A DNA stretch of 64,000 nucleotides, from positions 22,139,210-22,203,209 of the forward strand of contig NC_134030.1 of the NCBI RefSeq assembly GCF_964204645.1, in the 5' to 3' direction. The stretch comes from Tubulanus polymorphus. Lineage: Eukaryota; Nemertea; Palaeonemertea; Tubulaniformes; Tubulanidae. The notes under the pieces are model-generated. The model was not told the DNA's origin. It ran no database searches and saw only the letters and a program-made list of their open reading frames with translations. Both the position numbers and the translations under genes were made by a program. Positions 5,532-48,650 of this stretch are shown in pieces (the first letter of the stretch is position 1; every line of letters starts with the position of its first letter).

Positions 5532-5674
5532 TTAGCTACATAAAACTCGAACCTTTCTCCTCAATTTTTTGTGTCTCGATCCATCGCCGTCTGCTTTCGT
5601 CGCTGCCGCCAGGGGGCGTTTTCTCGCCTGTTTCCGCGGTGATCGTCTCGGTGCACTGTCGGCCATGTCTGAGA
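5532..5674 (-). CDS. NPAT: NPAT exon 10: basic C-terminus (predicted last exon)
   Basis: A GATTCCAG acceptor at 5675, used with the exon 9 donor at 6546, keeps frame and gives 47 residues: SDMADSAPRRSPRKQARKRP, then HKKLRRKVRVL before a TAA stop at 5532. This is a strongly basic, S-P-containing nuclear tail, which suits an NPAT C-terminus better than the read-through tail of exon 9. The exon also carries a CTCF-like word (about 5607-5621). No cDNA evidence is available here, so this is an inference from phase, splice sites and composition. Confidence 0.6.
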
Positions 5675-8600
5675 CTGGAATCGACGCAAAAAATAATTCG
5701 ATGTAAAATACAAAATAAAATTTCAGGTATTATTTTGCAGACGCTGGGCATGTGTCGAAAACAAGGATCAACACTCCTTAAAACTGGTTTCAACTTCCGA
5801 CCAAATAACTGCTCTATATTCTGGGTTTAACTTTCAGTGCGGTGTATGAATCGGTGATAGATTTTGCTAGTACACCGCACTGCGGTGTATTGATGTAATT
5901 AGTAATTATATCTCTTGAAAAATGGCAGCACCTGTCAAACATAGTGAAATATCAGTAACTAACGATACACCGCGCTACTGTGTAGACGCACTATACTGGT
6001 ATTCCCGTTGTTCAACACACTAGGGCGGAATTATTCAAAATTTTCAAATTATCTCCATCACTATAGGGTATCAATAAGTCAGCACTGAAAGGGTTAAGGA
6101 AACTGATAATTTGAGAAACTGGTCTAAAGATTCGAAGTCCATCTAATTTTTATCTAGACCCTGGCTTCTCGTTGAGATAAAAACTGCCCTTTTGAAATTC
6201 ATGCTGAAATCCACCCTCCTAAAAATCCGTTTTTAAAACCAGTTTATACTCCAGGGCTGGGTTTCATAAATGTAGGCCCAGTTTCACGAAAAAGTTTAAG
6301 CCTAAAACGGTTAAGTTTGAATTGTTGAATTGTTGTCCTGCCATTTACCACCACCACCAAAATCGTTCTGCACCGATGCGGGCGCAGTATATCGGGGGCT
6401 GACTGTACTCATTTTTATGAGTTATCAGCTCATGTTCATTTCATACTGATGTAAAGGTGCACTGATTATAATTAGTAGAAGTGCCCGCCCTAGATTAGAA
6501 AATAAACTATCATTATTATCATTAATTAGACCTAATTCTATTATACCTGGTTGTTCCGTGTTTGACTGCGAGGTGTCGCTCTCTAGTGACTGTTCACCGC
6601 TGAAACGCTCGGTCCACAGTTTTTTCGGTGTCCGTACGCTGCTAACAGGCGGCGCCACTGAATCTGTTCGCCTCGAGTCCTGCGTTTTGCGGGACTGCGA
6701 AATTTCAACGTTATAGATTTTTTTCTCGTCCGGCGTTTTACAAATTCTCTTTGTCGGCTGCTCGGGCGTCAGTTCGGAATCGTCGTCGTCAGAATCAGCC
6801 ACGTCCGAATTGCGGAACGTTTTGTGAAGTTCCACAATTTCAGATTCGATATCGTCATTTTTTCTAGCCGACATTTCCCTTGTAGACGTTCGACTAGCCG
6901 ACATTTCCTCCGGCACAGGCGACATTTTCTCGCGTGACATTGTTCGATTCCGACCGCGAGTTACGTTCGTATTTCCGGCCGACATTGCGACATTTCGTTT
7001 AAGTTTTACGAGAATCGAAGCGAACTCTTCGAGCGATGACGTCTGCGCGTCGACGCCCCCTGGCGGTGAACGCGAACACTTTTTACCGGTCACCGGCGCC
7101 CGATTGGTCGGAATTGTTTTTAAGTAATTCGAAAGATTCTCCGTATTTGAATTTTTCCGATGATTCGTTTCGATGACGACTCGTTTTCGATTCCTCGTCC
7201 CCGTTTTCGACGGGGTATTCCGAGGCGAGCGGACGTCGATGTCGGATTCGGACTCGGCGACGAATTCCGGAGACGAAGCTTTCAAAGTTTCGATCGAAGA
7301 ATCGCTGATCGCCAAACGATAGCTTTCACTTTCCAAAACAAACATGTCCGCCGTTTCGAGTGGATCGTTTGTCTCGGGTGAATCGGATAAACCGAGATCA
7401 ACCGTCTTGGGTGGAGTAAACATATCACAGTTATTGTCGAGCGCGGGTGGAATTTCATCCACCGATTCCACTGACATCGCTCTCGCTTCCAGGCGATCGC
7501 CGCTTGATAATCCAGTTTTTCCTTCTCCGTCGCGCAGAGGAGCGACAACAGCTGCCGGAACAGGAGCAGCTGCAGGAGAAGCAGCCAGAGCTGGAGCAGA
7601 CGGAGGAGCAGCCGGAGCTGGAGCAGCTGGAGAAGCAGATGCAGTTGGAGCAGATGGAGAAGCAGCCGGAGCTGGAGCAGCTGGAGAATCAGCCGGAGTT
7701 TGAGCAGACGGAGGAAGAGCAGCCGGAGTTTGAGCAGACGTTTTCACCGGTGATTTCATAATAACCGATTCGTCGAAATCTGAACCGGATTCCGAAATCA
7801 AACATTCAATCACAACTTTCTCTCTTTTCTTCTTCTCTTTCTTCTTCTTTCGGTTCTTCTCTCTTTCGATCGAGGGTTTTTTAGGTGAACCACCGTTTTT
7901 TTTCGAAGAAGACGAACGTCTTTTTTTGCCGCTTTTTCCATGTTTTGAAGAAGAAGATTTCTTCTTTTTCTTTCGTTTATTTCTCGACAAATTCATCTCA
8001 TCCGGGGTTTTCCCTCCATCGATTCCGGCAGCGCCGTCGATCAGAATTGTCGCTACCTCGGCGACAATCTCCGAGCGGGCAGCGCTCGAACCGGTGGCTC
8101 CATCTAGCTGCTCATCGAGTTGTTCAAACGGACGGATTATTTCCGGCGCTTGCGTCAGTAATCGCCGCGCCTTCGATAACCACGGCACGTTCGTGCGGAC
8201 TTTCTTTGGACTCGAATTCACGACGAACTCCGGCTCCGATTCCGTATCCGTCAAATCCGGTAAGATTCTGTCGTCAAGACAACAATCGCCATCTCCAGAA
8301 TCACAAATCGCGCTTTTTTCAGGAGCTTTTGAATTTTGCTCGACAACATTTTTTTCATCCTGAACTACCGATATTCGTTCCTCCGATTCATGATTCGGCA
8401 ACGAATCGTTGATTCCATCCTCCGCTGCGGTTGTCGTGTCTCCTGAGTATCGTTTAGCTTTAGTTTTATCGACTGATGAACAGTTTTTATCATTAAACCA
8501 GGTCGGTTTTCGAATTTGAACCGTCATCGGTTTCGGTGAGGTTTTATTCTTCGCACTGCTGCGCACCTGCTTACAATCTGTAGATACAGGTACCTGCTTG

Positions 8601-11600
8601 TTGGCCTGCACCAGCGCACAGTCTGTAGACACCGGTACCTGCTTGTTGGCCTGCACCTGCGCAAAGTCTGCAGACACCTGATCACCCGCTCGCGCCTGAA
8701 ATGTTTTAGATTTCGTATTCTTAATACCTTCGATGATTTTCTCCAATTTAGATTTTGATCCCGTACGACAGTTCCGTTTACTATCACCAGGTGGCTTCAC
8801 GCCTGTCCGTTTAACTGAAGAACCACCAGGTGGCGTCTTCGATTGAACTTTCACTACCTTTAAACTTTCTCCACCAGGTGGCTCTGATAATATTTGGTCA
8901 TTAGGTGCATGCTCCAGATGGACAACATTAGTGTCTTCTGCTGAGCAGTTCACATTATCACCACTAGGGGGCTCTGGATGCACAATTATAGTATCTGTCA
9001 CTGTAAGATCAGTGTTTGTCACTTTAAGCTTTACATTTTTCCCACTAGGGGGCTCTGGATTTACAAAATCAGGGTTTTTCACCGTAAACTTCACACTTTT
9101 CCTAACAGGGGGCTCTGGATGAATGCAATCGGCATTTTTGACTTTGAGCTTGGCATTTCGTCCACTAGGGGGCGATGGAGCGACGCTATCAATATCTTTC
9201 GTCGATGAACGTTTCACATTTCCTCCGCTAGGTGGAGTTTGAGATAACCGAAGCGCGTTAATACTGTTCATGAATTCATCGACTTCGCTGCGTTCCGATT
9301 GACTTGCGTCCGGTCGACTGGTTTCCGATCGACTGGTTCCTGATCGACTCGTTTTCGATCGACTCGTTTTTCGGCGACTGGTTTTACAACGAATTTTCTC
9401 GGTGGGAGGTTTTTTGGACCGATTCGAAGACGGCACTGAACGAGCGACGACTTTTTGTGAATCTCGCGATTCGCGCGTTTTATTCAAGTTGATCAGTCGA
9501 CTCAACGGCAACAAGTCGTCCTCGGAATCATCACTAGATGGCGCTCCGTCAACCGGTAAATGATCTGTTTTATTACAAGAGGGCGCTCTATCCACAGGTA
9601 GTTTACCTATTTCATCACCAGATGGGTCTCCATCACCGGCGACTTGTAGTTTATCAGTGTTATCGCTAGATGGCGCTCTATCCACTGCTAGTCTATCTAC
9701 TTTATCACTAGATGGCGCTCTATCACCTGCGACTAGTAGCTTATCAGTTTTATCGCTAGATAGCGCTCTATCCACTGCTTGTCTATCTATTTTATCACTA
9801 GACGGCGCTCTATCCCTCGCGACTGGAAGTTTATCCCTTTTATCACTAGATGGCGCTTTGTGTGGTGATTTCCGCACGACCGAAATGAAATGTTTTTTGA
9901 CGCAATCGCCGGGAATCGCGGAACCGCGACTGCGCGTATTACGACACACTTGGTCGTCGACGTCTGCTGATGATGTCATCGATTGTTGTGTGGCTTCGCG
10001 AATCGCCGCGTTCAAAACTTTCATACATTTCCCTTTCGATTTGAATGGAAACGATTTCGGTTTCGAGGCCGATTTACCGCCGTCGCCGCCGTTGTTGTCG
10101 TCCGTGATGACCGCTCGTATTTGCGGATTAATATGCGCCGCGGTTGCCGTCGGTTTTGCGATGGTCGAAACTACTTTCTTCTGCGGAGAATCGAGCAGCG
10201 ACGCGATTTCGCTCAATAAATCGAGGTTTTTCGTGTACAAGTCGTTCGACGCGATTGGAGCAGTCTGAGTCGGAGCGGACGGATTCGGAGCAGTCCCATT
10301 TAGATCAGACGGGATTGGAGCAGTCCCATTTAGAGCAGACGGATTCGGAGCAGAACTTACTCGAGCAAAACTAAGCTCAACTGGAGCAGATCCAATCGGA
10401 GCCGTCCCAACTGGAGCGGAAGCCGACCGCTTCAATCTCGGAGACGCAAGTATCCGAGCGAGGACGTCGGGACGCTTCGGTGATAGTAACAATTCACCCG
10501 CCGCGGCGGCCGCGGAGGTGACTGCTGGGTCATCGCCGGGGACGATATCCAACGCCGACAGAATATCGCCGAGAATATTGCTGTTATCGTCTCGCGACAC
10601 TTCCATGACGACCTGATTGACCAGATCGTCGCTCGTGTTATCGCAACGAGGCTTCGGTCGAATTTTACGAAGTCCGCGGCGTTTCGGCCGAGGTTTAGTT
10701 TTAACCGCGTTACCGCCGCCGGCGTCCGCGTTGAAATCGAGTGATTTCGCGCACATGGCGACGCCGGTATTGTTGTTGTTTTTATTGTTGCGATGCGTTT
10801 CGGGTTTGTTTAAAACGTTGGACTGTTCGACGGACTGGTACCGCTGAGGTGACGCCAGATCCAGCAACGCTTTCAAATCTGAAAAACAAAACAAAAAAAT
10901 TGAAATCAACCCAAAACTGATTAGCATAAAATATGTTGCTATGTTTTCTAATTTATGCGCATAACTTACTCGGCGACCAATCGCAATTGATCAAATTTGG
11001 AATCAATTTTTCGGGAGTTTTTATGTTCATCACAGCCGCAACATCTAAAATTAACATCATATCTCAATTAGTAAAAGCTTCTAATGATGATGTCATAGGA
11101 GGATTTATGGGGAATTCTTTCTGTTATTTGACGGGATTTTTGGAGTTAGCTATGTGTGATGTCATACAGAGGGATTTATGGAGACACTGATGATGTCATA
11201 GAGGGATTTATGGAGGCATTGATGATGTCATAGAGGGATTTATGGAGGAGACACTGATGATGTCATAGAGGGATTTGTGGAGGAGACATTGATGACGTCA
11301 TAGAGGGATTTATGGAGGCATTGATGATGTCATAGGGGGATTTTTTGAGGCATTGATGATTTTTATGATGTCATAGAGGGATTTATGGAGATTTCTATCC
11401 GTTATTTGATAGAATTATTTGGAGTTAGCTATGTGTGATGTCATAGAGGGATTTATGGAGACACTGATGATGTCATAGAGGGATTTATGGAGGCATTGAT
11501 GATGTCATAGAGGGATTTATGGAGGAGACACTGATGATGTCATAGAGGGATTTGTGGAGGAGACATTGATGACGTCATAGAGGGATTTATGGAGGCATTG

Positions 11601-14600
11601 ATGATGTCATAGGGGGATTTTTTGAGGCATTGATGATTTTTATGATGTCATAGAGGGATTTATGGAGATTTCTATCCGTTATTTGATAGAATTATTTGGA
11701 GTTAGCTATGTGTGATGTCATAGAGGGATTTATGGAGGCATTGATGATGTCATAGAGGGAATTATGGAGGAGACATTGATGATGTCATAGGGTGAATAAA
11801 GACTTACCGTTATGAGTTTTCTCCAGTAACGAGACTGTTGTTGTTGTTGTTGTTTTGTGTTTTGTTGATGTTGTTTTTTTAACGGGAGGCGGCGGAGGTT
11901 CGGGCAGCGTTACAGAATCTACGAATTTCGAATTACTCGGCGAGTTGGAGGTGACGCGAGTCAAGGCCACACGACGAGGAGGAGGAGGAGGAGGAGGCGG
12001 AGGAGGTCTCGATGATCGACTGTTCTTACGTAAACTACCGCTACCAACTTTATAATCCAAGGCAGACGGCTTCGATTCAACAATCCGCTCGCTAGATGGC
12101 GCCGGTAGTATAAACTGAGATTTATTCGCGGTCACTTGCGGCGTCTGCTGTGGTACGACGGGCATCGTCGTCATGGTAACCGGTGGCGCTTGTTGTAGAA
12201 TAATTATCGTAGGTGGCGCCGGTAATGATGCGATTGCGTTCTGAATCGGTACCGCGGCCGTTGCTACCGAAACGTTAACCGGCCGCGTATCGATTACGTT
12301 CGAAGTGTAACTAGTTACCGCTGATGTCGTCTGCGCGCGTGTATTATCCGTGTAACTAACGGCAGCACTTTGTTGATATCCCGACGCGACCCAGTCTTGT
12401 TGCGCCGTGTAACTCATAGCCGCAGCGCCCCCTGGTAGTGGACCATTTAAATGCTCCTCGATGAATTCGGTGTCGAAGCTGACGTCATCGGCGGTGGTGG
12501 TAAGTGGAAAATGCGTATTCGGATTGGTGTCCGGCGAGCATCCGATGAGGTGTTCGCGGTGCGCCGCCTCAACCGATGACAACATCTGCGGCGACATGAC
12601 GCGTAACAGAGCCTCGGCCTGAGTCTGCGTGACGATCTCGTGATTAACTCCCGTCGGAGGCGTAGGTGGCGCCGTCGTCGGTGAACACGCCGAGTACGTC
12701 TGCCGTATCGGAATGAACGGCGATTGTGGAGCGCAGCCCGGTGAGGGAGCCAACCTCGATAATGGAGATGGAGCCACCCCAGGCGACGGGGCTACGATGG
12801 ATGTATTCATAACGTCCTGATATGCAGCAGGTGATGGTACAGCAGCCGGCGACATGATTCCACCACCAGGGGGCACTACGAACTGATTCGGTGCTGGTGA
12901 CACTATTCCACCACTAGGGGGCGCTGCAAATTGTTGATTCTGAGCAGATGCCACCATTCCACCAATAGGTGGTGCTACAAATTGATTCTGAGAACCCACC
13001 ATTCCACCAGAAGGGAGCGCTACAAACTGTTGATTCTCAGCAGACGCCACTGTTCCACCACAAGGTGGCGCTACAAATTGTTGATTCTGAGCAGACGCAA
13101 CTATTCCACCACTAGGGGGTGCTATGGCCTGTTGAACAGAAGATCCAGTAGGTGGCAGTAGTGACGCTTTATGATTTTGAATAGTCGGCACTAAACCGGC
13201 GAAACTAATATTCAAACGAGCGTCTGCCACATTGTTGTTTCCAACGACAAGCGGAGAATTCAAATTCGAACACTGATCGCTTGCAAATTTCTCGAAATTA
13301 AAACCCGTCTCGGCAGCTGTCGCCGCCGCTGTTGTCGCCGTGGTTACAATATCTCCGGCGGCCATTGTTGTGAACGCGTCTTGAGTGTCGAGTAAACCGC
13401 ACGTAAACGCTGTCGTCTCGATAACAGTCGGAGCTGTAACGGATTTTTCAACTTCGTGTCGTTTTTGTTCCTCGTTTCGAGCCTCGGAGTTCGGCTGTAA
13501 ATCAATAGAGTCATCAGGTGCTGCCACCTGTACAGATTCAGTGTCATTACAGGTAACCTCTCCCACAGGTGCTGCCACCTTTAGATAGTCTGCTTCCTGA
13601 GTTGACGCGAGTATATAAGAGTTCCCAGCAGGTGCTGCCGCCTGCTGATCAATTGTATCGAACGACTTCAGTCCAACGCTTTCTCCAGCAGGTGCTGCCA
13701 CCTGGTGTTCATTAGTCTCACCAGACTCGAGTATAACAGAGTTTCCAGCCGGTGCTGCCACCTGCTGGTAATTCACATCTACCGTTTCTTGCATAACACC
13801 AACTCCAGCAGGTGCTGCCATCTGGTGATTGTTTGTATCGACAGTTTTTGGTAGAACGCCGTCTGCAGTAGGTGCTGCCATCTGATGTTCATTCATATCA
13901 TAAGCCTCCGATATAATCGAGTTTCCATCGGGTGCTGCCACCTGGTGACCATTCGTTTGAACCGCTTCGACGTAAACAGACGTACCGCCCGGAGAGGACG
14001 TTATCGATATCGGAATGATTTCGCCGTCACCAGGCGGCGCTGCTGGACTCGACGGTGGCTGCGGATCGGAAACTATTTCAGCACCTGAAAGATAATTGAC
14101 AAAACTTCTTGAGTTTATAAACGAATTTCACGCTAAAAATTCCATTTCTTTGAGATTCTGAATCGGCAGACGATAAAATTGAAACATTTCTCGGTTAAAC
14201 TAAACTCATATCTAGGATGCAAACTTTAACTGCCGGCGACAGGAAGATATCTCATTGCTCCAATCCCCCCTCCCTTGTAGCTGATTCTTTCTATTCACAG
14301 TAGATATTTGCACATGGGAATGGCCCAGTTCCTGATTGGCTGGCAATGTGAACAAACTCAGCTTCATTTTCACTGCTCATTGGTCAATGTCGAGCGAAGG
14401 CTGACAACGTAATAGCTTCAGTTCAAACCTACGAGTAAACTCGTAGTTGCAATAGAGGGCAGCACTGTATCAACATGGCAGTATATCTCTACGCATAGAT
14501 AGTCAAAATAAGTCACTTTGTTATTTCTGTTAGTTCATTTAAACAAGTTTATTGTGTCATTGAATTTGTAAATTTTCCACCGTGTTATAAAATCTGTAAA

Positions 14601-17600
14601 ATATGTGTCGTCCCTCAATTACCTGTGTGTTTTAGAGTAAAAAAAAAAATAAATAAATAAATAAACAAGCAGCAAATGTTGTCCGCCACGTCAGGAGAGT
14701 TACCTATTTCGAATAGATTGAACAGCTCATCAAACGCCGGGTCCAACTTCGCTTCTTGAATCACGTTCGTAATATCGTCCGACGTCATTTCCTGCGACGT
14801 CAGAAAATCGTCGAGCGTCGTCGTCGTCGTCGGCATCCTCGTGGCCGTCGAGATAGTCGCTGCGCCACCTGGTGGCGGATCTTTAACGACGACTTTGTTG
14901 ATGGTTTCGGCGAGTCTTTCCTGCAGCTTCTTATCGGCCAACATTCGTTCGACGACCGACTGTAACAAACAGAAAACAAATTGAAAACTCAATGATGAAA
15001 TGTGGCTTCATCCAACAAGATAAAATGTCAATAGACATTGAAACACGGGTTCCCTTCAGATGAGTTTTAACAGGATCTCTACAGATAACAGTCATTCCTG
15101 GATATGAGTTTAGATGGGGTCCCTACAGATCAGTCTTACCAGGATAAAAGGAGTTTTAAAGGTGAAAATTTCAAATTTCGAGGAAGCGTCAGAATCACTT
15201 TCATATCCCAATTTCAGGAGACTCCTCCTAAATCAGTGCACTTTATTTCAGTAAACCAGTAATTCAGTAGTTTTTTTGTAAGCAAATTTTTATCCTTAAA
15301 ACTGCATAATTGGGTAAAAAAATCCTAATTGTTGACTGATTTAGGCATAGTTCACAGTCCGTACAACACAAACATTTCCAATCTCCTATTTCTCAAAATT
15401 GCAGTTTTTAAGTAGTTTTGGCATTTAGCTCAAATGAAAGGAGTTTCTATATAGGTATTTCTATATAGGCAAAGGAGTTTTTAAGGAATCAAGGAGTCGC
15501 AGTGACCCTCTAAACTTACTGAGACTTTTTCCGGGTGTATCGACTCATTGCTGTCGCATTTCAATTTACGCTTGACCTCTGTGCGTTTACGAGGCGTGTG
15601 CCTAAAAAATATATCAATTCAATATTACATCGTGATGCGATGTACTAACAAAATCCATCACCTATTTATACACTGCACTATGGTGAAAACGTTTTCCTTA
15701 AAATTCTGGGAAAGGTTTTTCAATAATAATTGATTAGAATCGGGTTTAGGGTTAACTAAACAGATTTGAATTCCAAGTCAAACTTAAGCAGTAACTTATT
15801 CAAGTGGGAACTTTTCCTTGCATTTCTCGTTTCATTGGTTTGTGTTAAAATTAGTTCATCGTAATCATTTTCAAACTTTTAGAGTCATAATTTTTTCGCG
15901 AATGTTTCGTTCGTTCATGAATAACTTTTCGAAATCGCGACAAAAACTTACTTTTTGCGCTTAGGTGTGCGTAACAGATTATCAGCGTCTGCGGGCTGCG
16001 TCAAGTCAATTGAAAAGGAAAAGCTGTCCACGCTCGCCGTAGCTAGTACGTCGTCTTCTGGTTGTGATTTCGATAGTTTACAGGTCGATGGTTGTTCGAT
16101 TGACTCAACTGTTCCTTCCAGAGCTGAAAAAATCATTCAAATAAATCCAGTTCAACAAAGAGGACAAGAATGAACAATGGATTTGTTAGATTAGTTTTAG
16201 GATCCGCGTAGTCCTGGAGTTTTTCGATGTATTTTAGGACAACATTCACCAACTTGAGTGATATCCGAATTGGATCGTACAGTAGACTCAGCTCAAGTCA
16301 GATCTATCGACTTGAGAGTGATATCTGAGTTGGATGATACAATAGACTCCGCGCAAGTCTGATCTTTTGACTTGACAGTGATATCTGAATTGGATGATAC
16401 AGTAGACTCCACTCAAGTCGGATCTTTTGACTTGACAGTGATATCTGAGTTGGATGATACAGTAGACTCCGCTCAAGTCAGATCTTTTGACTTGAGAGCG
16501 ATATCTGAGTTGGATGATACAGTAGACTCCGTTCAAGTCTGATCTGTTGACTTGAGAGTGATATCTGAGTTGGATGGTACAGTAGACTCCGCTCAAGTCA
16601 GATCTATCGACTTGAGAGTGATATCTGAATTGGATGATACAGTAGACTCCGCTCAAGTAAGATCTTTTGACTTGAGAGTGATATCTGAGTTGGATGGTGC
16701 AGTAGACTCCTCTCAAGTCAGATCTATCGACTTGAGAGTGATATCTGAATTGGATGATACAGTAGACTCCTCTCAAGTCAGATCTTTTGACTTGAGAGTG
16801 ATATCTGAATTGGATGATACAGTAGACTCCGCTCAAGTCAGACCTTTTGACTTGAGAGTGATATCTGAGTTGGATGATACAGTAGACTCCGCTAAAGTCA
16901 GATCTTTTGACTTGAGAGTGATATCTGAGTTGGATGATACAGTAGACTCCGCTCAAGTCAGATCTTTTGACTTGAGAGTGATATCTGAGTTGGATGATAC
17001 AGTAGACTCCGCTCAAGTCTGATCTTTTGACTTGAGAGTGATATCTGAGTTGGATGATACAGTAGACTCCGCTAAAGTCTGATCTTTTGACTTGAGAGTG
17101 ATATCTGAGTTGGATGGTACAGTAGACTCCGCTCAAGTCGGATCTTTTGACTTGAGAGCGATATCTGAATTGGATGATACAGTAGACTCCACTCAAGTGG
17201 GATCTTTTGACTCATACCTGTATTTTGAGAAGCACTCTTCGATATATCTGCAGGTTGATCTGTGATATCAGAAAAAAAAACAAAGTTTATTTTCATGTCT
17301 CGGTTCGGAGCCAGTTCAGTGGAATTTCAATTTCTGTCTGCTTAAATTCAAAGTAACTCTATTTTCTCACCTGAACAAACGGCGTTAAAAACCTCTTCGA
17401 ATCCAAGGATTTCCATCGCAGGCGTCTTTTGTTTCCGTTTCCTTTTCCGTTTTTTAGGAACCGAGCTGCTAGTATCTGTATGGCTAGATACGGCACTGCT
17501 AGGAACAGCACTGCTAGATACGGCACTGCTAGGAACTGCAGCGATAGGAACTGCACTGCTAGGAACAGCACTGTTAGGAACTGCACTGCTAGGAACCACA

Positions 17601-20344
17601 CAGCTAGGAACTGTACTGCTAGGAACCACACAGCTAGGAACTGTACTGCTAGGAACCACAGCAGAAAAACCTGTTTGAAAAAATAATAATCAATATTTGG
17701 TTTTAATTCTATGGATGGTATTATCATTAGCCAATCAGAATGCATGTTTCATTTAGAGTCCTTTTTAGAGTCATTCTTTTTCATGGCAGAGTCTCACGAT
17801 GTCATCAGGTTCAAATCCCTGAGGGAGGAACATGGCAGAGTCTCACGATGTCATCAGGTTCAAATCCCTGCGAGGGAGGAACGTGGCAGAGTCACACGAT
17901 GTCATCAGGTTCGAATCCCTGCGAGGGAGGGACGTGGCAGAGTCTCACGATGTCATCAGGAACGAATCCCTGCGAGGGAGGAACGTGGCAGAGTCTCGCG
18001 ATGTCATCAGGTTCGAATCCCTGCGAGGGTGGGATGTGCCAGAGTCTCACGATGTCATCAGGTTCGAATCCCTGCGATGGTGGAATGTGGCAGAGTCTCA
18101 CGATGTCATCAGGAACGAATCCCTGCGAGGGAGGAACGTGGCAGAGTCACACGATGTCATCAGGTTCAAATCCCTGCGAGGGAGGAACGTGGCAGAGTCT
18201 CACGATGTCATCAGGAACGAATCCCTGCGAGGGAGGAACGTGGCAGAGTCACACGATGTCATCAGGTTCAAATCCCTGCGAGGGAGGAACGTGGCAGTCT
18301 CACGATGTCATCAGGAACGAATCCCTGCGAGGGAGGAACGTGGCAGAGTCACACGATGTCATCAGGTTCAAATCCCTGCGAGGGAGGAACGTGGCAGAGT
18401 CTCACGATGTCATCAGGTTCAAATCCCTGTGAGGGAGGAACGTGGCAGAGTCACACGATGTCATCAGGTTCAAATCCCTGCGAGGGAGGGACGTGGCAGA
18501 GTCTCACGATGTCATCAGGTTCAAATCCCTGCGAGGGAGGAACGTGGCAGAGTCTCGCGATGTCATCAGGTTCAAATCCCTGTGAGGGAGGAACGTGGCA
18601 GAGTCACACGATGTCATCAGGTTCAAATCCCTGCGAGGGAGGGACGTGGCAGAGTCTCACGATGTCATCAGGTTCAAATCCCTGCGAGGGAGGAACATGG
18701 CAGAGTCTCACGATGTCATCAGGTTCAAATCCCTGCGAGGGAGGAACTTGGCAGAGTCAGGTTCAGTAATCCCTGCGAGGTTCATAAAGAACCCTGTTTT
18801 TTGCTTACCTCCATTTTTAAGCGCGACAAACTGATCAATAATATTGATCAATGATAAGCCGTATACGTTAGTTGGATATTCTCGGCCCTTGCGCAACAAC
18901 GTGACGTATTCCTTCAGATATAAACACTCATCCAGAAACACATTGTACGTATTGAAACAAGACTCTTCTTTTAGGTAACCTAAAAATAGACACACATTCT
19001 TTTTATACAGGGTCCCCCTATGGACTCAGTGACGCAGGTTCCCTACAGATCGGTCATTCCTGGAGATATAAAGAATTTACAAGGAGAATATTTCAAATTT
19101 GAGGAAGCATCTGCATCACTTTCATAACCCAATTACTGCAGACTACTCCGAAATCAGTACTGTTTGTATCTCAGCAATCCAGTTTTTCAGTGTTTTTGTA
19201 AGCAAACTTTTATCATATAGGCCTTAAATAGCATTTTCTGTAAGTAAGTTTTGAGGAAGCGTCTGCATCACTTTCATAACCCAATTACAGTAGACTACTC
19301 CTTAATCAGTACTGTTTGTATCTCAGCAATCCAGTTATTCAGTGTTTTTATAAGCAAACTTTTATCATATAGGCCTTAAATAGCATTTTCTGTAAGTAAG
19401 TTTTGAGGAAGCGTCTTTCATAACCCAATTACAGTAGACTACTCCTTAATCAGTACTGTTTGTATCTCAGCAATCCAGTTATTCAGTGTTTTTATAAGCA
19501 AACTTTTATCATATAGGCCTTAAATAGCATTTTCTGTAAGTAAGTTTTGAGGAAGCGTCTGCATCACTTTCATAACCCAATTACAGTAGACTACTCCTTA
19601 ATCAGTACTGTTTATCTCGGTAAACCATTAATTCTAGGGTTTTGTAAGCAAATCATCTACACAACCTAAACTTGATTTATAATTTGGTAATGGCCGAATT
19701 GGGTTAACACAAATCCAACTGTACAACTACAAACTAGACAAACATTTCTAATGGCATTTTGTTCAAATAGAAAGAATCTCAAGCAGCTTTAAAATCATTT
19801 TCAGTTTAGACAGAGTTTGTAAGGAATCGACCACCGGTTGTAGGGAACACTGCTGTTGATCCTGTCATCTTACTTTTTCAAACTTCAAAAATAGAGGCAT
19901 ATTACACGAAAAAGCAACACTCAAATCTCTGGTTTGGTTCATGTGTCGTGTTGCAATTGGTAAATTCTTCTATTTTGCTTACTAGTTACTGTAGTTACTT
20001 TTTCACAAAATGACAAATCAAATTTATATGAAATTTCAAACTTAATTTTGCCATGGGTTGCTTTTCTAAGTTAAACTGATTGTTGAAACCGGATTCTCAG
20101 GTTAAATGCGACGATTGAAGTTACAGGGTTGAGGTTTAAGTTGGGCATTAAGTCGTTAACCATTAACTTTCGATCCCAGGGTCTCCAAATGGTTAACACG
20201 TACTTTTGCGGGATATTCGGATATTTTTAAGCCGAACCCGGAAGTGAAAAAAAAAGTTAAACATTTCGCGTTTGAAGCGGAATTTTCAAGTTTAAACTCA
20301 CCTAAAATCAAACGCGCCACTTCTGACGGCAACAACTCGTTCAT
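5532..20344 (-). CDS. NPAT: NPAT homologue (LisH-domain histone-gene co-activator), whole gene, 10 coding exons
   Basis: Recognised from three places. Residues 1-40 are a LisH-type start (MNELLPSEVARLIL then GYLKEESCFNTYNVFLDECL) very close to the NPAT N-terminus. Exon 7 carries LQERLAETINK and DPAFDELFNLFE, both typical of NPAT. The C-terminus is strongly basic. Exons (minus strand, high to low): 20344-20302, 18979-18809, 17670-17371, 17259-17218, 16123-15952, 15601-15520, 14959-14704, 14084-11808, 10878-6547, 5674-5532. The phases join and sum to 7,818 nt, 2,605 residues; human NPAT is about 1,430, so this one is nearly twice as long because of repeats. In the family, NPAT sits in histone locus bodies and activates replication-dependent histone genes under cyclin E/CDK2 control. 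This protein is rich in S-P and T-P pairs, but which of them are used is unknown. Every intron above 500 nt holds a minisatellite or transposon. If exon 9 is not spliced at 6547, the frame runs to a stop at 6425 instead. Confidence 0.85.
5827..6097. mobile_element. piggyBac-like MITE, copy 1 (in last NPAT intron)
   Basis: The ends are TTAACTTTCAGTGCGG and GCACTGAAAGGGTTAA: inverted repeats flanked by TTAA, the piggyBac target. The 271-bp interior is the reverse complement of the copy at 41321-41605. No open frame. Confidence 0.6.
6547..10878 (-). CDS. NPAT: NPAT exon 9: giant exon with SSDK and PPSGG repeats
   Basis: 4,332 nt, residues about 1115-2558. Visible blocks in order: PSAPNGTAPI-type repeats (10.25-10.4 kb), about nine R-A-P-S-S-D-K units (9.52-9.88 kb), a T-S-R-S-x run, about nine PEPPSG or PPGG units (8.78-9.24 kb), a lysine/serine patch KKKKKSSSSKHGKSGKKRR (7.83-7.98 kb), and a Pro/Ala tract (7.54-7.74 kb). 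Acidic S-D-S-D-D-D-D and many S-P/T-P sites follow. I place the donor at 6546 (CAACCAG then GTATAA) because sequence beyond it turns abruptly AT-rich and encodes a hydrophobic tail unlike the rest. Without that splice the stop is at 6425. Confidence 0.75.
8780..9860 (+). promoter_or_regulatory. Array of CTCF-like words inside NPAT exon 9
   Basis: About sixteen matches to the CTCF core pattern CCA(C/G)(T/C)AG(G/A)(G/T)GGC, nearly all on the plus strand, e.g. CCCACTAGGGGGCTCTGG (9041-9058), TCCACTAGGGGGCGATGG (9160-9177), ATCACTAGATGGCGCTC (9531-9547) and copies at about 9661, 9703, 9751, 9796 and 9842. Spacing is about 45-95 bp. Binding is not shown by sequence alone. Confidence 0.5.
11100..11795. 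repeat. NPAT intron 8: minisatellite with GATGATGTCATAGAGGGATT
   Basis: About 20 copies of a 28-45 bp unit, TGATGATGTCATAGAGGGATTTATGGAGG, in larger blocks of about 290 bp that repeat twice. Each unit holds TGATGTCAT or TGACGTCAT, a CRE/AP-1-like half or full site. The same unit occurs in SF3A1 introns (34.7-35.05 kb and 37.9-38.63 kb). Confidence 0.88.
11808..14084 (-). CDS. NPAT: NPAT exon 8: large repeat exon (AAPAG, APPSGG, polyproline)
   Basis: 2,277 nt, residues about 356-1114, no recognisable globular domain. From the 5' end it holds about nine copies of a roughly 20-residue unit with a Q(V/M)AAPAG core (60-nt period, 13.5-14.0 kb). Next come about six copies of a 16-residue unit with an APPSGG core (48-nt period, 12.85-13.15 kb), a proline/serine-rich region, and a run of ten or more prolines at about 11.99 kb. 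Near 12.5 kb, the segment around RVMSPQMLSSVEAAHREHL looks like a short helix. Likely largely disordered, like the middle of vertebrate NPAT. The acceptor is ATCTTTCAG and the donor GTAAGT. Confidence 0.8.
12860..13160 (+). promoter_or_regulatory. Array of CTCF-like words inside NPAT exon 8
   Basis: Seven words at roughly 48-bp spacing. CCACTAGGGGGCGCTG (12911-12926) is a textbook vertebrate CTCF core; neighbours read CCACCAGGGGGCACTA, CCACAAGGTGGCGCTA and CCACTAGGGGGTGCTA. A further nine CCAGCAGGTGCTGCCACC words lie at 13.51-13.95 kb. Confidence 0.5.
14704..14959 (-). CDS. NPAT: NPAT exon 7: conserved NPAT block
   Basis: Residues about 271-355. This exon has the best similarity to vertebrate NPAT outside LisH: a helix with KKLQERLAETINK and an acidic stretch ending DPAFDELFNLFE. 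It also contains PPPGGAA, encoded by a CTCF-like word at about 14866-14882. The acceptor is CTGTTTGTTACAG and the donor GTAACT; phase 0 in, 1 out. The conservation supports the gene assignment independently of the LisH motif. Confidence 0.8.
15115..15510. mobile_element. CAGGGTYCCTAC-family element in NPAT intron 6
   Basis: Starts GGGGTCCCTACAGATCAGTC and ends AAGGAGTCGCAGTGACCCT, ten bases from the exon 6 splice site. It shares the GAAGCGTC, CAGTACTG and AACATTTCC blocks with the copy at 62062-62452. Confidence 0.5.
15520..17259 (-). CDS. NPAT: NPAT exons 4-6, small spacer exons with basic clusters
   Basis: Exon 4 is 17259-17218 (42 nt, DQPADISKSASQNT). Exon 5 is 16123-15952 and ends TPKRKK. 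Exon 6 is 15601-15520 and begins HTPRKRTEVKRKLK. The exon 5/6 junction thus builds one long basic stretch, a good bipartite nuclear-localisation candidate. All junctions have consensus donors (GTATGA, GTAAGT, GTAAGT) and AG acceptors, with phases 1-1, 1-2 and 2-0. The exon 4 donor abuts the 60-bp satellite array of intron 4. Confidence 0.7.
16261..17215. repeat. NPAT intron 4: 60-bp satellite, 16 copies
   Basis: The period is exactly 60 bp with only substitutions between copies, no indels. The unit begins CTTGAGAGTGATATCTGAGT and ends GATCTTTTGA. It fills almost the whole intron. Long frames on both strands are artefacts of 60 being divisible by three. Confidence 0.93.
17371..17670 (-). CDS. 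NPAT: NPAT exon 3: V-P-S-S-A pentapeptide repeats and a basic patch
   Basis: The exon is 300 nt, phase 1 at both ends. It encodes about a dozen degenerate five-residue units (VPSSA, VPSCV, VSSSA), a 15-nt minisatellite inside coding sequence, then a lysine/arginine run (KKRKRKRKQK) that could be a nuclear localisation signal. The acceptor is TTTTTTCAAACAG and the donor GTGAGA. The repeat block looks like recent slippage; the basic part is more likely to be functional. Confidence 0.7.
17775..18775. repeat. NPAT intron 2: 51-bp satellite with tRNA B-box word, about 20 copies
   Basis: The unit contains TCACGATGTCATCAGGTTC, then AAATCCCTGCGAGGGAGGAA, then CGTGGCAGAG. Copies with GGTTCGAATCC are exact Pol III B-box matches; others read GGTTCAAATCC. 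No A box is evident. Frames are open on the plus strand because 51 is divisible by three; coding is unlikely since splice sites place it in an intron. Confidence 0.9.
18809..20344 (-). CDS. NPAT: NPAT exons 1-2: LisH domain
   Basis: Exon 1 (20344-20302) gives 14 residues and ends one base into a glycine codon at a GTGAGT donor. Exon 2 (18979-18809) follows a TTTTTAG acceptor and completes Gly-Tyr-Leu-Lys. Together they make a LisH motif: LPSEVARLIL, then GYLKEES and a C-terminal helix, with ILE-type spacing as in NPAT. LisH motifs dimerise, and in NPAT this region is needed for histone-gene activation. The ATG at 20344 is the only sensible start; the same residues begin the vertebrate protein. 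Confidence 0.85.
19040..19865. mobile_element. Inverted-repeat element (CAGGGTYCCTAC family) with internal triplication, NPAT intron 1
   Basis: Begins GGTTCCCTACAGATCGGTCA and ends near GGTTGTAGGGAAC. The interior AGGAAGCGTCTGCATCACTT block of about 150 bp is tandemly repeated three to four times. Other copies: about 15115-15510, 37205-37585, 41680-41955, 52917-53215, 62062-62452. Non-autonomous DNA transposon family. Confidence 0.6.
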
Positions 20345-38600: not shown

Positions 38601-41600
38601 GAAGTGTCTCTTCGATGATGTCATAGGGTGATTAAGTGAAGCAGCCATGTTTATACGTATATATTGATTGATATGTTGTAGCTGCGAAGGCGTCTGCGGC
38701 AGTCGTAACCGATCAGTACCTGATTTCACCAATCACTGGCGAGAAGATCGCCGCCGATAAGGTAGCGGAACACGTTCGCATCGGATTACTGGATCGTAAG
38801 TGGATCGAACAGCGCGATCGGTCGATGTCGGAGAAACGCGAACAGGAAGAGGTGTTCGCGCCCGGAGTCAGCATCGGATCAAACTTGAAGAAACTGTCGG
38901 AGCGTCGTACGGATATATTCGGTATCGGTCTCGAGGAGACGCAGATCGGTAAAAAGGTGAGTAGTTACGGGCACCGGTTGCCAGGGGGCGTCGCGACTTA
39001 CAATAGATTACATCCTCACTTGCCACAAGTGGAATCCTCTATTACCGCAGTAGTTGATGTCCAACAGCTCACTAGCGACACCTGGTGGATCCACACTTGC
39101 TACAAGTGGAATCCTCTATTGCCGCAGTAGTTGATGTTGTACTGCACACACTTGTTACACCTGGTGGATCCTCACTTGCCGCAAGTGGAATCCTCTATTG
39201 CCGCAGTAGTTGATGTCGTACTGCACACTAGCGACACCTGGTAGATCCTCACTTGCCACAAGTGGAATCCTCTATTGCCGCAGTAGTTGATATCGTACTG
39301 CACACTAGTGACACCTGGTGGATCCTCACTTGCCACAAGTGGAATCCTCTATTGCTAAAGTAGTTGATGTTGTACTGCACACTAGCGACACCTGGTGGAT
39401 CCCCGTGCTGAGTATTGATTTGAATTGTATTTTGTATTTCAGATCGGTGAAGAAGAGAAACGCGTTGAGAAGGTCACGTGGGACGGTCACACGGCGTCGA
39501 TGGAGAAAGTCACGCAGAAAGCTCGTGAAAACATCTCGATTCAGGAACAGATTCATCTGATTCACAAAGTCAAGGGTCTCCTGTAAGTCTTTAACAACAG
39601 TTATCACTACAATCTCATATACACTGATCGTCATCTTCTCTATAGAACCAAAATGTGCTTACTCCTGCTGGAGTGTGGAGTTGTTTTAGTCTTAATTTGT
39701 TTGATTAGCATTTTCTGATTTCATAAAGAATGGTCTTTATCTGAGGACTGATTGGTTTTAACTTGATTGTCAAATTGATTATAAAACCCAATTGAACTAA
39801 GGCTGGTCTTAAATGTTCCACAGATCTTTGTTGATGAATGATGAGTTTTATACTGAAATTATAGACTTGTAGTCTGAAGTAGGAGTTGCCATATTTACAC
39901 ACTGTGTGGTTCCAATATTGTACACATATTGAATAAATAGTCATAGTGTTGTATTGAACCAGTTTGAGTAGTGACACACACACACACACCTGTCTGTCTG
40001 TCTGACCACCTCAATCAGCTTCAGTGATCTAATGATTTCATTGGCTGGCTAGGGTTATGATGTCATAGCTGGTCAGGTGACCTAGGGTTAGGGTTAGCTG
40101 TGATTGGCTGGCTAGAGTTATGATGTTCCAGCTGGTCAGGTGACCTAGGGTTAGGGTTAACTGTGATTGGCTGGCTTGGGTTATGATGTCATAGCTGGTC
40201 AGGTGACCTAGGGTTAGGGTTAGCTGTGATTCGCTGACCAGAAGTTATGATGTCACAGGTCTCAGGCTTTAGGAATTAGTAGCTACGTATTGATAATGGA
40301 ATCTACTATTCTATTCTGGGGTAGGACTTTTAATAGTTACAAATAGAAAACTGACATTTATTTAACAATTAGAAATCATGAGTTTTATACTGAACTTATA
40401 GAGTTTTAGAAATATGGGCTGAACCTATTTCCGCTAGGCTCTCAAGAATTTACCTCCGAGTGGAAATACAGAATCCTTTTCTAGAGTCTTTGAGTTACAA
40501 GTACTTCACTTTCAATGTTTTTAAAATAGGTTATTTAAGCATTTAACCAAGTTTTTCAAGGATATCACAAAGATTTCATTAAAAGAATTATTCACAAGCA
40601 AGACTTATCTTTCCGTTCAAGGGTGCATTTAAATCCAAGATGGCCAATTCCCTAGAAAGCTCAGGGAATCAGAAAAATATAGAAAGGAATCAGGGAAAAC
40701 TCTTGAAATTTGATAGAAATTTACCGCAAACCTGGAAAACTCAGGAAATTCAGATATTGTCCACGTATTTCTTTATCAATACGGGATTCAAAAGTGAATG
40801 AATTTTTTATATTTCAAACCTGGAAATTTCTCTGATTCACTCACAGGAAATTTTCTGTGATCACTAGGAATGAATCAGGGAAATGTAAATATGTGAAAAG
40901 TGGCGCCATCCTTGAAATCTAAATCAAATTTGAATTTATCGCGTTTCAGGCCGGACGAAAACAAAGAGAAGATCGGACCGACCCTCCCGTCGTCGAAACC
41001 AACGACGACCTCGTCGTCGCTAGGCGGAAGGATGCCGCCGGCGACCTCTTCGTCGACGCTGACGGCTCCGATGAAACCGCTGCTGCCACCTACGTCGACG
41101 TTACCGAAACCGAAGCCGCTGCAGCAGGCGAGGATTCCGGCGGCGATGATGGCGTCGATGCCGCGCCCGCCGCCGATTCACCGACCCGCCCACATGTCCG
41201 TGCCGCCCGTCATGATGATGCCCGCGATGCCTCAACCGCCGATGATGCCGGGTATGTTTGTATTTCACGATCCCTACGACTCTGGAATTCCCAAAAAATC
41301 CTTCTAAACAGAAAATGCTTTTAACCCTTTCATTGCTGACTAATCAATACCCTATAGTGCTGGAGATAATTTGAAAATTCTAAAAAATTCCACCCTAGTG
41401 TGTTGAATAACGGGAATACCACTATAGTGCGTCTACACCGAGGTGCGGTGTATCGTTAGTTACTAATATTTCACTGTTACATGTGCTGCCATCTTTCAAG
41501 AGAGATAATTACTAATTACATCAATACACAGCAGTGTGGTGTACTAGCAAAATCCATCACTGATTCGTACACCGCACTGCGGTGTAGACGCACTGAAAGA

Positions 41601-45859: not shown

Positions 45860-47797
45860 GGATTAAACTTCGCCGACATCTAGCTGAGATATATGTAAGT
45901 AGATTGGGTTTTGTTGCGCGAGTTGTAATCGTTTTGAATAGAAATTTCCAGTGATTACACGACGAGCTAGTGCGAGCGAGGATTACACGCGAACCCGCTA
46001 GATAGAGAGCTGCTCCGACAGATCAATACAGCGAAGTGTCTTACAGTGTGTTGCGCAGTTTAAACTTCTATTACGATGTCACGTCCGAATTCGAATGGCA
46101 TTCGGTTTAAATGGTTTAAATACCTTCTCGCTATCGAAATATCGTAAATACGCGATTTTTAATCGCATTTTTGAGTCGAATCGAAGCGAGCCGCTGTTAC
46201 TGTCGGGATTGCACAGAATGACCTACATCGCGAGCTCTGGCACTGCTGGGGTATGTCTGGTACTGTTAAGAACGTCATGCCAATTAGTTGGCAGTTTTTG
46301 ATAATAAGAAACGTAATTACGCGCAATTGTTATTAAATATCCAATGATGGAATTTTGCTCGAATTGTGTGAATAATCGCGAATTTTGACCTGAGAAATGA
46401 CCTACATATTGTGTCAATTTTACGGTATGTCTGGTGTAGTAGGCAGTGCTTAATGTTGTTCCAGATATGTTAATGCTGTTTACAGCGCTGGTGCCGTCGT
46501 GTTTGTCCTTGGCGTTGAAGTAATAGTGTGTACACTGCCTTTTGCGTAATCGATGTTTCAAATGTCAAATTGAAATTTACCCCATGAAGATGAAAAGAAA
46601 ATTGGTACACAAAGTTCATTCCAAATACGTTATATAATTATGGAAATGTCATGAATGGAGTCACATTTTTCAAGGCAAAAACTCTAACTATAGGCAAAAG
46701 AGTGCATTTGTACTTTAAATCTTTCCAGTAAAATTGTTCGTCAGGAGTTAACTCCAAAGTAGGATTGGAAAATTATCTAAATGCTTCAATCAATAATGAA
46801 GATGATATTAAAATTCAAGGTGGAATCTAAAATAGAAAAATTGGAAAAAAGTGAACAAATTTTTTTACAGAAATTTTAGAAAATTCCTCTACAATTTGTC
46901 TTACTCATTATCAAAATTAATATTGAGTTTCGAATCTGTCAGGTCCAGGCGTCTTTTATGGAAAATTAAGAAAAAAAGTTGGACTTGTTGTGTCATGTTG
47001 AAGAAGACAGTATCAAAATGACTTTGTAAATTGAATTAGAAATACAAATTGGGCCTTAGAGAAAACCAGTAACCTGCAATTAGGCCTTCTCGGATGAAAA
47101 CACACTCAGCAAATTGAATTGCAAGCTATATCTTCAGATGGTGCTTGAAACAGAATATGGTATCCTAGAATCCGTTAATATGACAAATATTTTTTCACCA
47201 GTCTAAGCTACCTCAGTTGTGTATAGCCATTCTAACAAGATAAAACCAGTCTAAGCTCGTTAATTGGTTCTTTAGCCAATCTTGAAGTACTCCAAGAGCC
47301 AATCTTCAGACCAGTCTAAGTTCATTTTAGGTCTGTAGCCAATCTAACAACTTAAGACCAGTCTTAAGCTTGTTTTAGTTCGATAGCCAATCTAACAACT
47401 TAAGACCAATCTAAGCTCATTTTAGTTCTGTAGCCAATCTAACAACTTTCAGACCAGTCTAAGCTCATTCTGGTTCTAAAACCAATCTAACAACTTTCAG
47501 ACCAGTCTAAGCTCATTTTAGTTGGGGGCTGGTTGCATAGTCATGGCTTTGACTTAAGACCAGTCTTAGACCAACTTAGTTCTATAGCCAATCTAACAGC
47601 TTAAGATATATATTTTGAGAAGTGCTAGTCGAAAAAAAACGTATCAATTTTGAACTGATGTCTTCACCTGAATCCAGATCAGCCCCAAATGATTAATGCA
47701 ATTTGATCGTAGATTTTTTTGGCAGTTCACAAAATGTCAAATTGACAAAAAATACTCAATAATGAAATGAATGATTTGGAAAATGTTGTTTATAGAA
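45860..47797 (+). promoter_or_regulatory. BBX: Probable BBX promoter, 5'-UTR exon and first intron
   Basis: The region 45.3-46.3 kb is CpG-rich compared with its surroundings. A strong donor (ATAT|GTAAGT, 45895) could end a 5'-UTR exon that joins the BBX coding acceptor at 47795. The intron between them carries about eight degenerate copies of a roughly 50-bp repeat (GACCAGTCTAAGCTCATTTT type, 47.2-47.6 kb). The 146-codon frame at 45443-45883 does not look like a protein. Confidence 0.35.
47200..47600. repeat. Roughly 50-bp degenerate repeat upstream of BBX
   Basis: About eight copies of AGACCAGTCTAAGCTCATTT with AGTTCTGTAGCCAATCTAAC. Confidence 0.8.
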
Positions 47798-48650
47798 ATG
47801 GAGTCGGAGGAGATATCACCGACCGGGGCGCCGACGTCCGGGACCCCACAAACGACCGTCAAACGACCGATGAACGCGTTTTTAATATTCTGTAAACGTC
47901 ATCGCGGGATGGTACGAGACAGGAACCCGAATTTAGACAACCGTAGCGTAACGCGTATTCTCGGAGAATGGTGGGCTAACCTTGACCCTAACGAGAAATC
48001 TATCTACGTCGATTTAGCAAAACAGGTTCGTTTAATTGTAGTACAAGAAATATTCACTGGGTCCGGTTACAAAGCCTGCTCCACAGTTTTTCACCTAGTT
48101 CCACACTTCTGGATCCAGTTCCACAGTTGCGTACCAAGTTCTACAGGACCCAGTTCCACAGATCTGAACCCAGTTCCACAGTTCTGAACCCAGTTCCACA
48201 GTTCTGAATCCAGTTCCGCAGTTCTGTATCTAGTTCCACAGTTCTGAACCCAGTACCACAGTTCTGCACTCAGTTCCACAGTTCTGTATCTAGTTCCACA
48301 GTTATGGACCCAGTTCCACAGTTCTGTATCTAGTTCCACAGTTCTGGACCAAGTTCTACAGTCTGTTGATTTGGGGATGCATTTGAATTTAAAAAGTAAA
48401 TATGTTTTATTTTATATTTATTTATGTCTGTAGTATAAAGACGCCTTTATGAAAGCGAATCCAGATTTTCGTTGGTACAGCGACAAATTCCATACTTCAA
48501 CGCCATCTACAACTACTAAACCATCAACTGCCACCAGGGGGCCATTGGCTGTGGCTCAGCCCGGCGGGGCTCCATCTACTGGGGCTACTAGACAAACTGC
48601 CAAACTGTCATCAGCTGCGAAAACCGAACCGGAAATCATCCAAACTGCTG
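47798..48650 (+). CDS. BBX: BBX exons 1-2: HMG box
   Basis: Exon 1 (47798-48025) ends DLAKQ at a GTTCGT donor; exon 2 (48434-48650) resumes [12 protein letters not shown]. Key HMG residues are present: the N-terminal RPMNAF strand, paired Trp in helix 2 (GEWW) and the aromatic W near the end of helix 3. The intron between them is filled by a 20-bp CAGTTCCACAGTTCTG repeat. Exon 2 ends in a T/P-rich stretch that includes a CTCF-like word (CCACCAGGGGGCC, about 48533). Confidence 0.9.

Follow-up and report, generated by a model that had tools for sequence, protein, structure and literature searches.

The question raised by this locus is why coding exons should be studded with one regulatory-looking DNA word. 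The window, by which we mean the whole stretch of 64,000 nucleotides analysed from the nemertean Tubulanus polymorphus (contig NC_134030.1, positions 22,139,210 to 22,203,209), contains on its minus strand NPAT, a regulator of histone genes, and on its plus strand a gene with an HMG box, and the exons of both carry words resembling the core of the binding site of CTCF, the protein that folds genomes. The reading that we favour, to which the sequence evidence would give about an even chance, is that these are coding minisatellites in probably disordered protein regions, with units that contain a CTCF-type word, and that this word has been kept as DNA. Computation shows more words than expected, occurring in five different peptide repeats and in both orientations relative to the genes, silent sites in the NPAT copies that vary as CTCF would tolerate, a CTCF orthologue with similar core fingers and a genome-wide abundance of the word.

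A scan with a working version of the JASPAR matrix MA0139.1 retrieved 32 matches of at least 11 bits in the NPAT region between 5.6 and 14.9 kb, a density that exceeded both codon-shuffled and repeat-tied null expectations and bore out an earlier sequence-only reading, in which a dense set of CTCF-core-like words had been noted in these exons. Opposite-strand matches overlapped at 13622/13633, 13682/13693 and 14860/14862. The top scores were found at 12860 (24.7 bits) and 12908 (24.6 bits); the word previously named as the best, CCACTAGGGGGCGCTG at 12911-12926, lies inside the latter match and is marginally surpassed by the former. Since nine of the 32 matches face minus and 23 face plus, the earlier statement that nearly all face plus was wrong. 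The word-bearing arrays and the isolated words of NPAT are as follows.

5603-5621, plus strand: isolated word of 16.8 bits in the presumed last NPAT exon (assigned by eye).
7051-7069, minus strand: isolated word of 18.7 bits, coding.
8770-9240, minus strand: PEPPSG repeat, nine peptide-anchored copies, five plus-strand words of at least 15 bits (antisense to the gene).
9520-9865, minus strand: RAPSSDK repeat, eight copies, four words of at least 13 bits on the plus strand.
12423-12441, minus strand: isolated word of 16.9 bits, coding.
12850-13165, minus strand: APPSGG repeat, seven copies, seven words of at least 15 bits on the plus strand.
13500-13990, minus strand: AAPAG repeat, eight copies, five words of at least 15 bits on the minus strand, the sense strand of the gene.
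14024-14042, plus strand: isolated word of 16.5 bits, coding.
61331-61613, plus strand: TLGGV repeat in the HMG-box gene, 33-bp unit, seven words of at least 11 bits on the sense strand.

The five arrays encode different peptides, with the word antisense in APPSGG, PEPPSG and RAPSSDK, the three repeats in which it had originally been recognised, and sense in AAPAG and TLGGV; the excess is therefore not limited to NPAT, as the HMG-box gene harbours isolated words in addition to its 33-bp sense-strand array. Repeat periods of about 48, 46 and 80-95 bp had been proposed, and measurement from peptide-copy anchors instead gave mostly 51 bp for APPSGG, 42 or 48 bp for RAPSSDK and an irregular 27-81 bp for PEPPSG. 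In a related group of CCAGCAGGTGCTGCC words just two plus-strand matches, of 11.7 and 12.9, attained 11 bits, and those of the AAPAG repeat are better read as minus-facing CTCF words, six of which, scoring 13.5-22.7 bits (e.g. TTACCAGCAGGTGGCAGCA), occur on the minus strand of that repeat (13.5-14.0 kb). The word at 5603-5621 overlaps codons reading RPLAAA, a third reading frame. According to the available portion of PMC7432317, the C terminus of NPAT binds FLASH/YARP.

At a threshold of 17 bits, 27 words were found in 16.7 kb of coding sequence (five exons, both genes) versus two in 46.3 kb masked as non-coding, within which exons of one or more other genes also fall; both of the latter words are of the GATCCACCAGGTGTCGCTA type that is found again in a downstream 77-bp tandem repeat. 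Only one word of this strength was present in 20 random loci (60 kb). Open frames of 451, 458 and 1101 amino acids in the 20 kb upstream of the window contain no word of even 13 bits, and the 20 kb downstream contain five of at least 17 bits beyond the 77-bp repeat, hence large exons per se are not the source of the words and one flank is word-rich. The 77-bp repeat is itself dispersed, occurring with its CTCF-like word (GATCCACCAGGTGTCGCTA and variants) at 39073-39401 and 42809 of the window and in two other pieces of the genome (L086, 5440-5920; L087, 5153 and 7397-7857).

An excess over codon-shuffled sequence, the comparison suggested by the sequence-only reading, was obtained both inside and outside the arrays. 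Non-array coding sequence (14.8 kb) contained ten words of at least 15 bits against 1.10 expected, with a maximum of four in 400 codon shuffles. As the copies within an array are not independent, the null for arrays was generated by re-encoding one repeat unit once with synonymous codons and summing the expectation across 21 coding arrays (10 in NPAT and 11 in the HMG-box gene), the NPAT arrays having been chosen by hand, with overlapping rows dropped and a 3-bp array at 11976-12006 omitted. Five of the 21 carry a 15-bit word where 0.26 would be expected (about 1e-5 by a hand Poisson calculation). The chance of a 13-bit word in a single unit, calculated with a codon-usage table that included a 153-bp out-of-frame piece, was 0.28 for APPSGG, 0.14 for AAPAG, 0.075 for PEPPSG, 0.02 for RAPSSDK and 0.004 for TLGGV, so that APPSGG and AAPAG are unremarkable taken alone. 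By the matrix used, core matches are above chance.

Were the peptide alone conserved, synonymous sites inside the word would be expected to drift. This was evaluated in the 24 copies of the three antisense NPAT arrays (APPSGG 7, PEPPSG 9, RAPSSDK 8), which were anchored by peptide alone, and comparisons between homologous columns were restricted to those with the modal amino acid in at least half of the copies. The CTCF matrix hardly varies at word position 6, and there the codon ended in T in 24/24 copies; at position 9, for which CTCF accepts either G or T, the last base of the codon just before departed from the commonest base of its array in nine (0/24 versus 9/24 variant, Fisher p 0.0016). 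This position-9 base was A or C (complementary to T and G) in 23/24 copies versus 46/156 other proline codons of the same two exons, and its changes between adjacent copies were A-to-C or C-to-A exchanges in 9/11 cases versus 7/56 in other homologous columns (p 1.2e-5). Pooled positions 12, 6 and 3 were variant in 8/72 cases versus 45/137 in homologous columns outside the word (p 4e-4). Variation kept to what CTCF tolerates was seen at position 6, which is fixed, and at position 9, which is almost always A or C, more weakly at position 12 and not at position 3. Amino acids vary at loose positions of the word (S, C, I, G and T at one APPSGG codon; S, E, T and K at one PEPPSG codon), and the bases tolerated at positions 4, 5, 8 and 9 agree with the matrix used. 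Silent sites track the tolerance of CTCF, which chance carriage of the word by a protein repeat does not explain; the silent-site constraint goes beyond protein and codon bias within the NPAT repeat copies of this one genome. The corresponding result for word arrays of three other loci (L001, L002 and L014) is biased, since these were found through a search for the word, and is not used as main evidence.

A CTCF orthologue is encoded at C3:3430460-3431720 (C1 to C8 being our contig labels), with 58/82 and 77/146 residues identical to human. A comparison of helices by eye revealed almost no change in fingers 3-5 and similarity in fingers 6-7, so that the core fingers (3-7) are retained.

The genes and exons in which the words lie were delimited by similarity and open frames, utilizing human NPAT as the tblastn query.

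About 5.6-20.3 kb, minus strand: NPAT, from tblastn matches to its N terminus and large open exons.
6551-10879, minus strand: large NPAT coding exon, open in frame.
11812-14085, minus strand: second large NPAT coding exon.
14704-14962, minus strand: NPAT exon, containing at 14860 a near-palindromic word that faces minus (23.9 bits).
18816-20335, minus strand: NPAT N-terminal (LisH-type) similarity in two pieces, 18816-18989 and 20240-20335 (tblastn E 2e-5 and 2e-4).
47.8-62 kb, plus strand: HMG-box gene, with Pfam HMG_box at its start (47771-48187, E 2.9e-12).
49460-50917, plus strand: coding exon of the HMG-box gene with four isolated words of at least 15 bits in both orientations.
53573-61957, plus strand: presumed large exon of the HMG-box gene, a 2795-amino-acid open frame, with isolated minus-facing words at 60797 and 61221.

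The open frames of the HMG-box gene, which we take to be BBX-like, probably belong to one gene. No Pfam family scored above its cut-off in the two largest NPAT exons, in which a single sub-threshold tRNA-synthetase match (E 0.018) was seen. The contig that carries NPAT ends about 0.9 Mb away from it. Both genes contain many coding tandem repeats, with units in frame within open reading frames, and 16 of the 21 arrays are without the word.

Searches were extended to the genome (267.8 Mb). The exact 14-base word CCACTAGRKGGCGC occurred 201 times and its reversed control not at all, whilst the other three bases at its position 6 together gave 93 occurrences, mostly CCACTGGGTGGCGC. The 9-base core was found 6,227 times versus 2,521 for the reversed core. 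Same-strand core pairs with a gap of 24-53 bases numbered 245 versus 34 for the reversed control (3.9% of words versus 1.35% of control), and a search for convergent inverted pairs, one of the two inverted arrangements, returned three. In the flanks of 40 sampled words no column beyond the 14 bases exceeded 0.25 bits, except one at -42. Some sampled words share flanks by eye (L035, L040, L041, L054 and L056, e.g. TAGTGCCTAGTTCTGCCACTAG; also L025/L026 and L047/L050/L051/L059), which implies that at least some copies are carried by dispersed repeats.

Coding word arrays that read APSSG or APPSG were also identified in an FG-nucleoporin-like gene (L001; Pfam Nucleoporin_FG E 7e-4, under the family cut-off), an EGF-domain, mucin-like gene (L002) and an unnamed open frame (L014). 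Sense-strand words read ALGGA/PLDGA in a C2H2 gene (L005) and SLDGA-like in L017. At 1467-1701 of L001 (C7:20455000-20458500), a 45-bp TAPSSGFNFSAPPA repeat in an open frame carries exact words on the opposite strand. Thirteen word copies, mostly spaced by 42 bp, lie at 1112-1670 of another, possibly coding, locus (L006, C8:16260000-16263200), which is open in several frames on both strands, and in a further one (L020, C5:82121) an exact word appears by eye to sit right behind the splice donor of a transporter-like exon. Word arrays were frequent near contig ends: 15 of 34 merged loci among the matches listed (C1-C8) lay within 1 Mb of an end, with 7.8% expected. For word loci the figure was 14 of 72 among the matches listed (C1-C7), with 7.4% expected, versus 9 of 65 for the control pattern (p 0.05). 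Spacers in the contig-end arrays are unrelated, and periods span 19-61 bp, e.g. C1:66598-67389, C1:31733338-31734557 and C6:31639-31780.

Several observations weigh against the word having been kept as DNA. The window is repeat-rich regardless of the word: random 9-mers of similar G+C content have a tandem partner 33-62 bp on in 1.0% of cases in random loci and 5.1% in the window, the latter against 3.9% of words genome-wide. No preference for open frames was detected, with 7/40 exact words in stop-free frames of at least 150 amino acids versus 14% of 800 random placements, in a sample of 40 of 100 listed places (of 201 in total) that left out the listed clusters and in which the TAG of the word closes two frames, biasing against words. 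Eight non-coding arrays with a period that is not a multiple of three (nine loci tried) showed no extra conservation of the word, divergence being 0.038 within words and 0.042 outside (p 0.29). A paralogous pair, L004 (C7:8110000) and L009 (C6:177000), is 87% identical and has unequal copy numbers of a word array beside a proline-rich exon; substitutions in it numbered 6/117 in words versus 32/524 outside, which indicates no extra conservation of the word. Within NPAT itself, position 3 is not specially conserved (13/27 same-amino-acid pairs differ), the silent-site p-values are optimistic because copies share ancestry, and the arrays were noticed in the first place for their CTCF match.

These observations suit ordinary coding minisatellites, in which slippage or unequal exchange multiplied a word already present in the first unit and homogenisation keeps the copies alike, with no DNA-binding function in the exons. 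The clusters are tandem (245 tandem pairs versus three convergent inverted, from the search described above), most coding arrays of both genes lack the word, and minisatellites are often common near chromosome ends, where nearly half of the merged array loci among the matches listed were found. Five arrays and ten isolated words far exceed the 0.26 and 1.1 expected on this account, and a fixed position 6 next to a freely changing position 9 in one word also tells against it. We nonetheless retain it as a possible, if clearly less than even, alternative because of the non-coding arrays, the paralogous pair, the open-frame null and the repeat-rich window. Between an exonic CTCF-binding platform and a word spread as a passenger of protein repeats, the two options offered by the sequence-only reading, the shuffle excess and silent sites favour a word kept as DNA, with a CTCF platform no more than a candidate: NPAT is not special, the clusters are tandem-duplicated, and divergence is alike in and outside the word in the non-coding arrays and the paralogous pair.

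Another DNA-binding factor with a similar word, either a second C2H2 protein or a recombination factor, might read the sites; the CTCF query had 42 C2H2-type matches at E <=1e-20 in the genome, and a factor linked to recombination would fit the location of arrays near chromosome ends. This appears unlikely, given that positions 4, 5, 8 and 9 tolerate the bases of the CTCF matrix used and that an orthologue with similar core fingers is present. Constraint on messenger RNA (mRNA), through an RNA-binding or splicing motif, would agree with the exonic location and with mostly antisense words in three NPAT arrays, but is disfavoured because orientation relative to the mRNA is mixed, both among the arrays and among the isolated words; the word is common beyond long open frames as well, and we consider this explanation very improbable. 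There is equally little to recommend selection on the protein repeat alone, with the DNA likeness a by-product of codon use. One antisense frame (APPSG/APSSG) does dominate, being shared by six of the seven sampled words in frames of at least 150 amino acids, but codon shuffles and tied re-encoding fail to yield words, the proline third bases at position 9 are unlike those usual in the gene, and amino acids at other word codons vary.

The retention of a CTCF-type word in coding minisatellites may be compared with several known systems. In 'duons', reportedly described by Stergachis in 2013, exonic transcription-factor sites are said to bias codon choice; as here, a DNA-binding word overlapping codons limits silent change, and CTCF is among the factors named, whereas the sites considered here are multiplied within in-frame tandem repeats of several genes and are known from sequence alone. 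Coding minisatellites, or variable number tandem repeats, occur in disordered proteins and likewise have tandem in-frame units with variable copy spacing, whereas here one regulatory-looking word is common to five different peptide arrays from two neighbouring genes. DXZ4 is a CTCF-rich macrosatellite that also presents CTCF words in tandem, although its type of unit is non-coding and kilobase-sized. Mammalian short interspersed nuclear elements carry CTCF sites, and some words of this genome similarly lie in dispersed repeats; the NPAT arrays, in contrast, are local tandem repeats with unrelated spacers. Homotypic CTCF clusters and germ-line duplications, in the available portions of PMC8559717 and PMC6945661, share the motif type, same-strand clustering and small tandem duplications, and differ in that many copies here are found within coding exons, in units of 33-60 bp; the term 'exon' does not occur in the accessible part of PMC6945661. 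An effect of exonic CTCF sites on codon usage is described in the available text of PMC5064350, and boundaries of two echinoderms are, in that of PMC13317027, enriched for the CTCF motif without an orientation rule. Within the terms used and the one library searched, nothing was found among the titles listed on coding CTCF-site arrays or on such words in NPAT.

Where motifs are bound in the human germ line, those of CTCF among them, an insertion is often a tandem duplication; clusters are built up in this way and may, in the authors' view, be neutral (PMC8559717, available portion). By analogy, CTCF or a factor of the same specificity may bind these exons, and its germ-line binding might favour small tandem duplications at the site, of which exons would retain those in frame. 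The word would then be retained as DNA after in-frame duplication, and the clusters could serve chromatin architecture in a word-rich stretch near a chromosome end. A bolder and rather doubtful proposal is that germ-line CTCF binding helps to write protein sequence: sites in disordered exons would seed in-frame duplications, arrays of sites and amino-acid repeats (NPAT, the HMG-box protein, the FG-nucleoporin-like protein) would grow together, and selection would hold the word at silent sites, a single exon acting both as an array of sites and as protein code.

If true, this would be dual coding multiplied in tandem, in which a single DNA-binding word influences which codons are used and also the repeat content of the proteins. 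The contrast between adjacent silent sites within one word would offer a search tool for such exons elsewhere that requires nothing beyond sequence, and the manner in which CTCF sites multiply would become testable in an invertebrate lineage.

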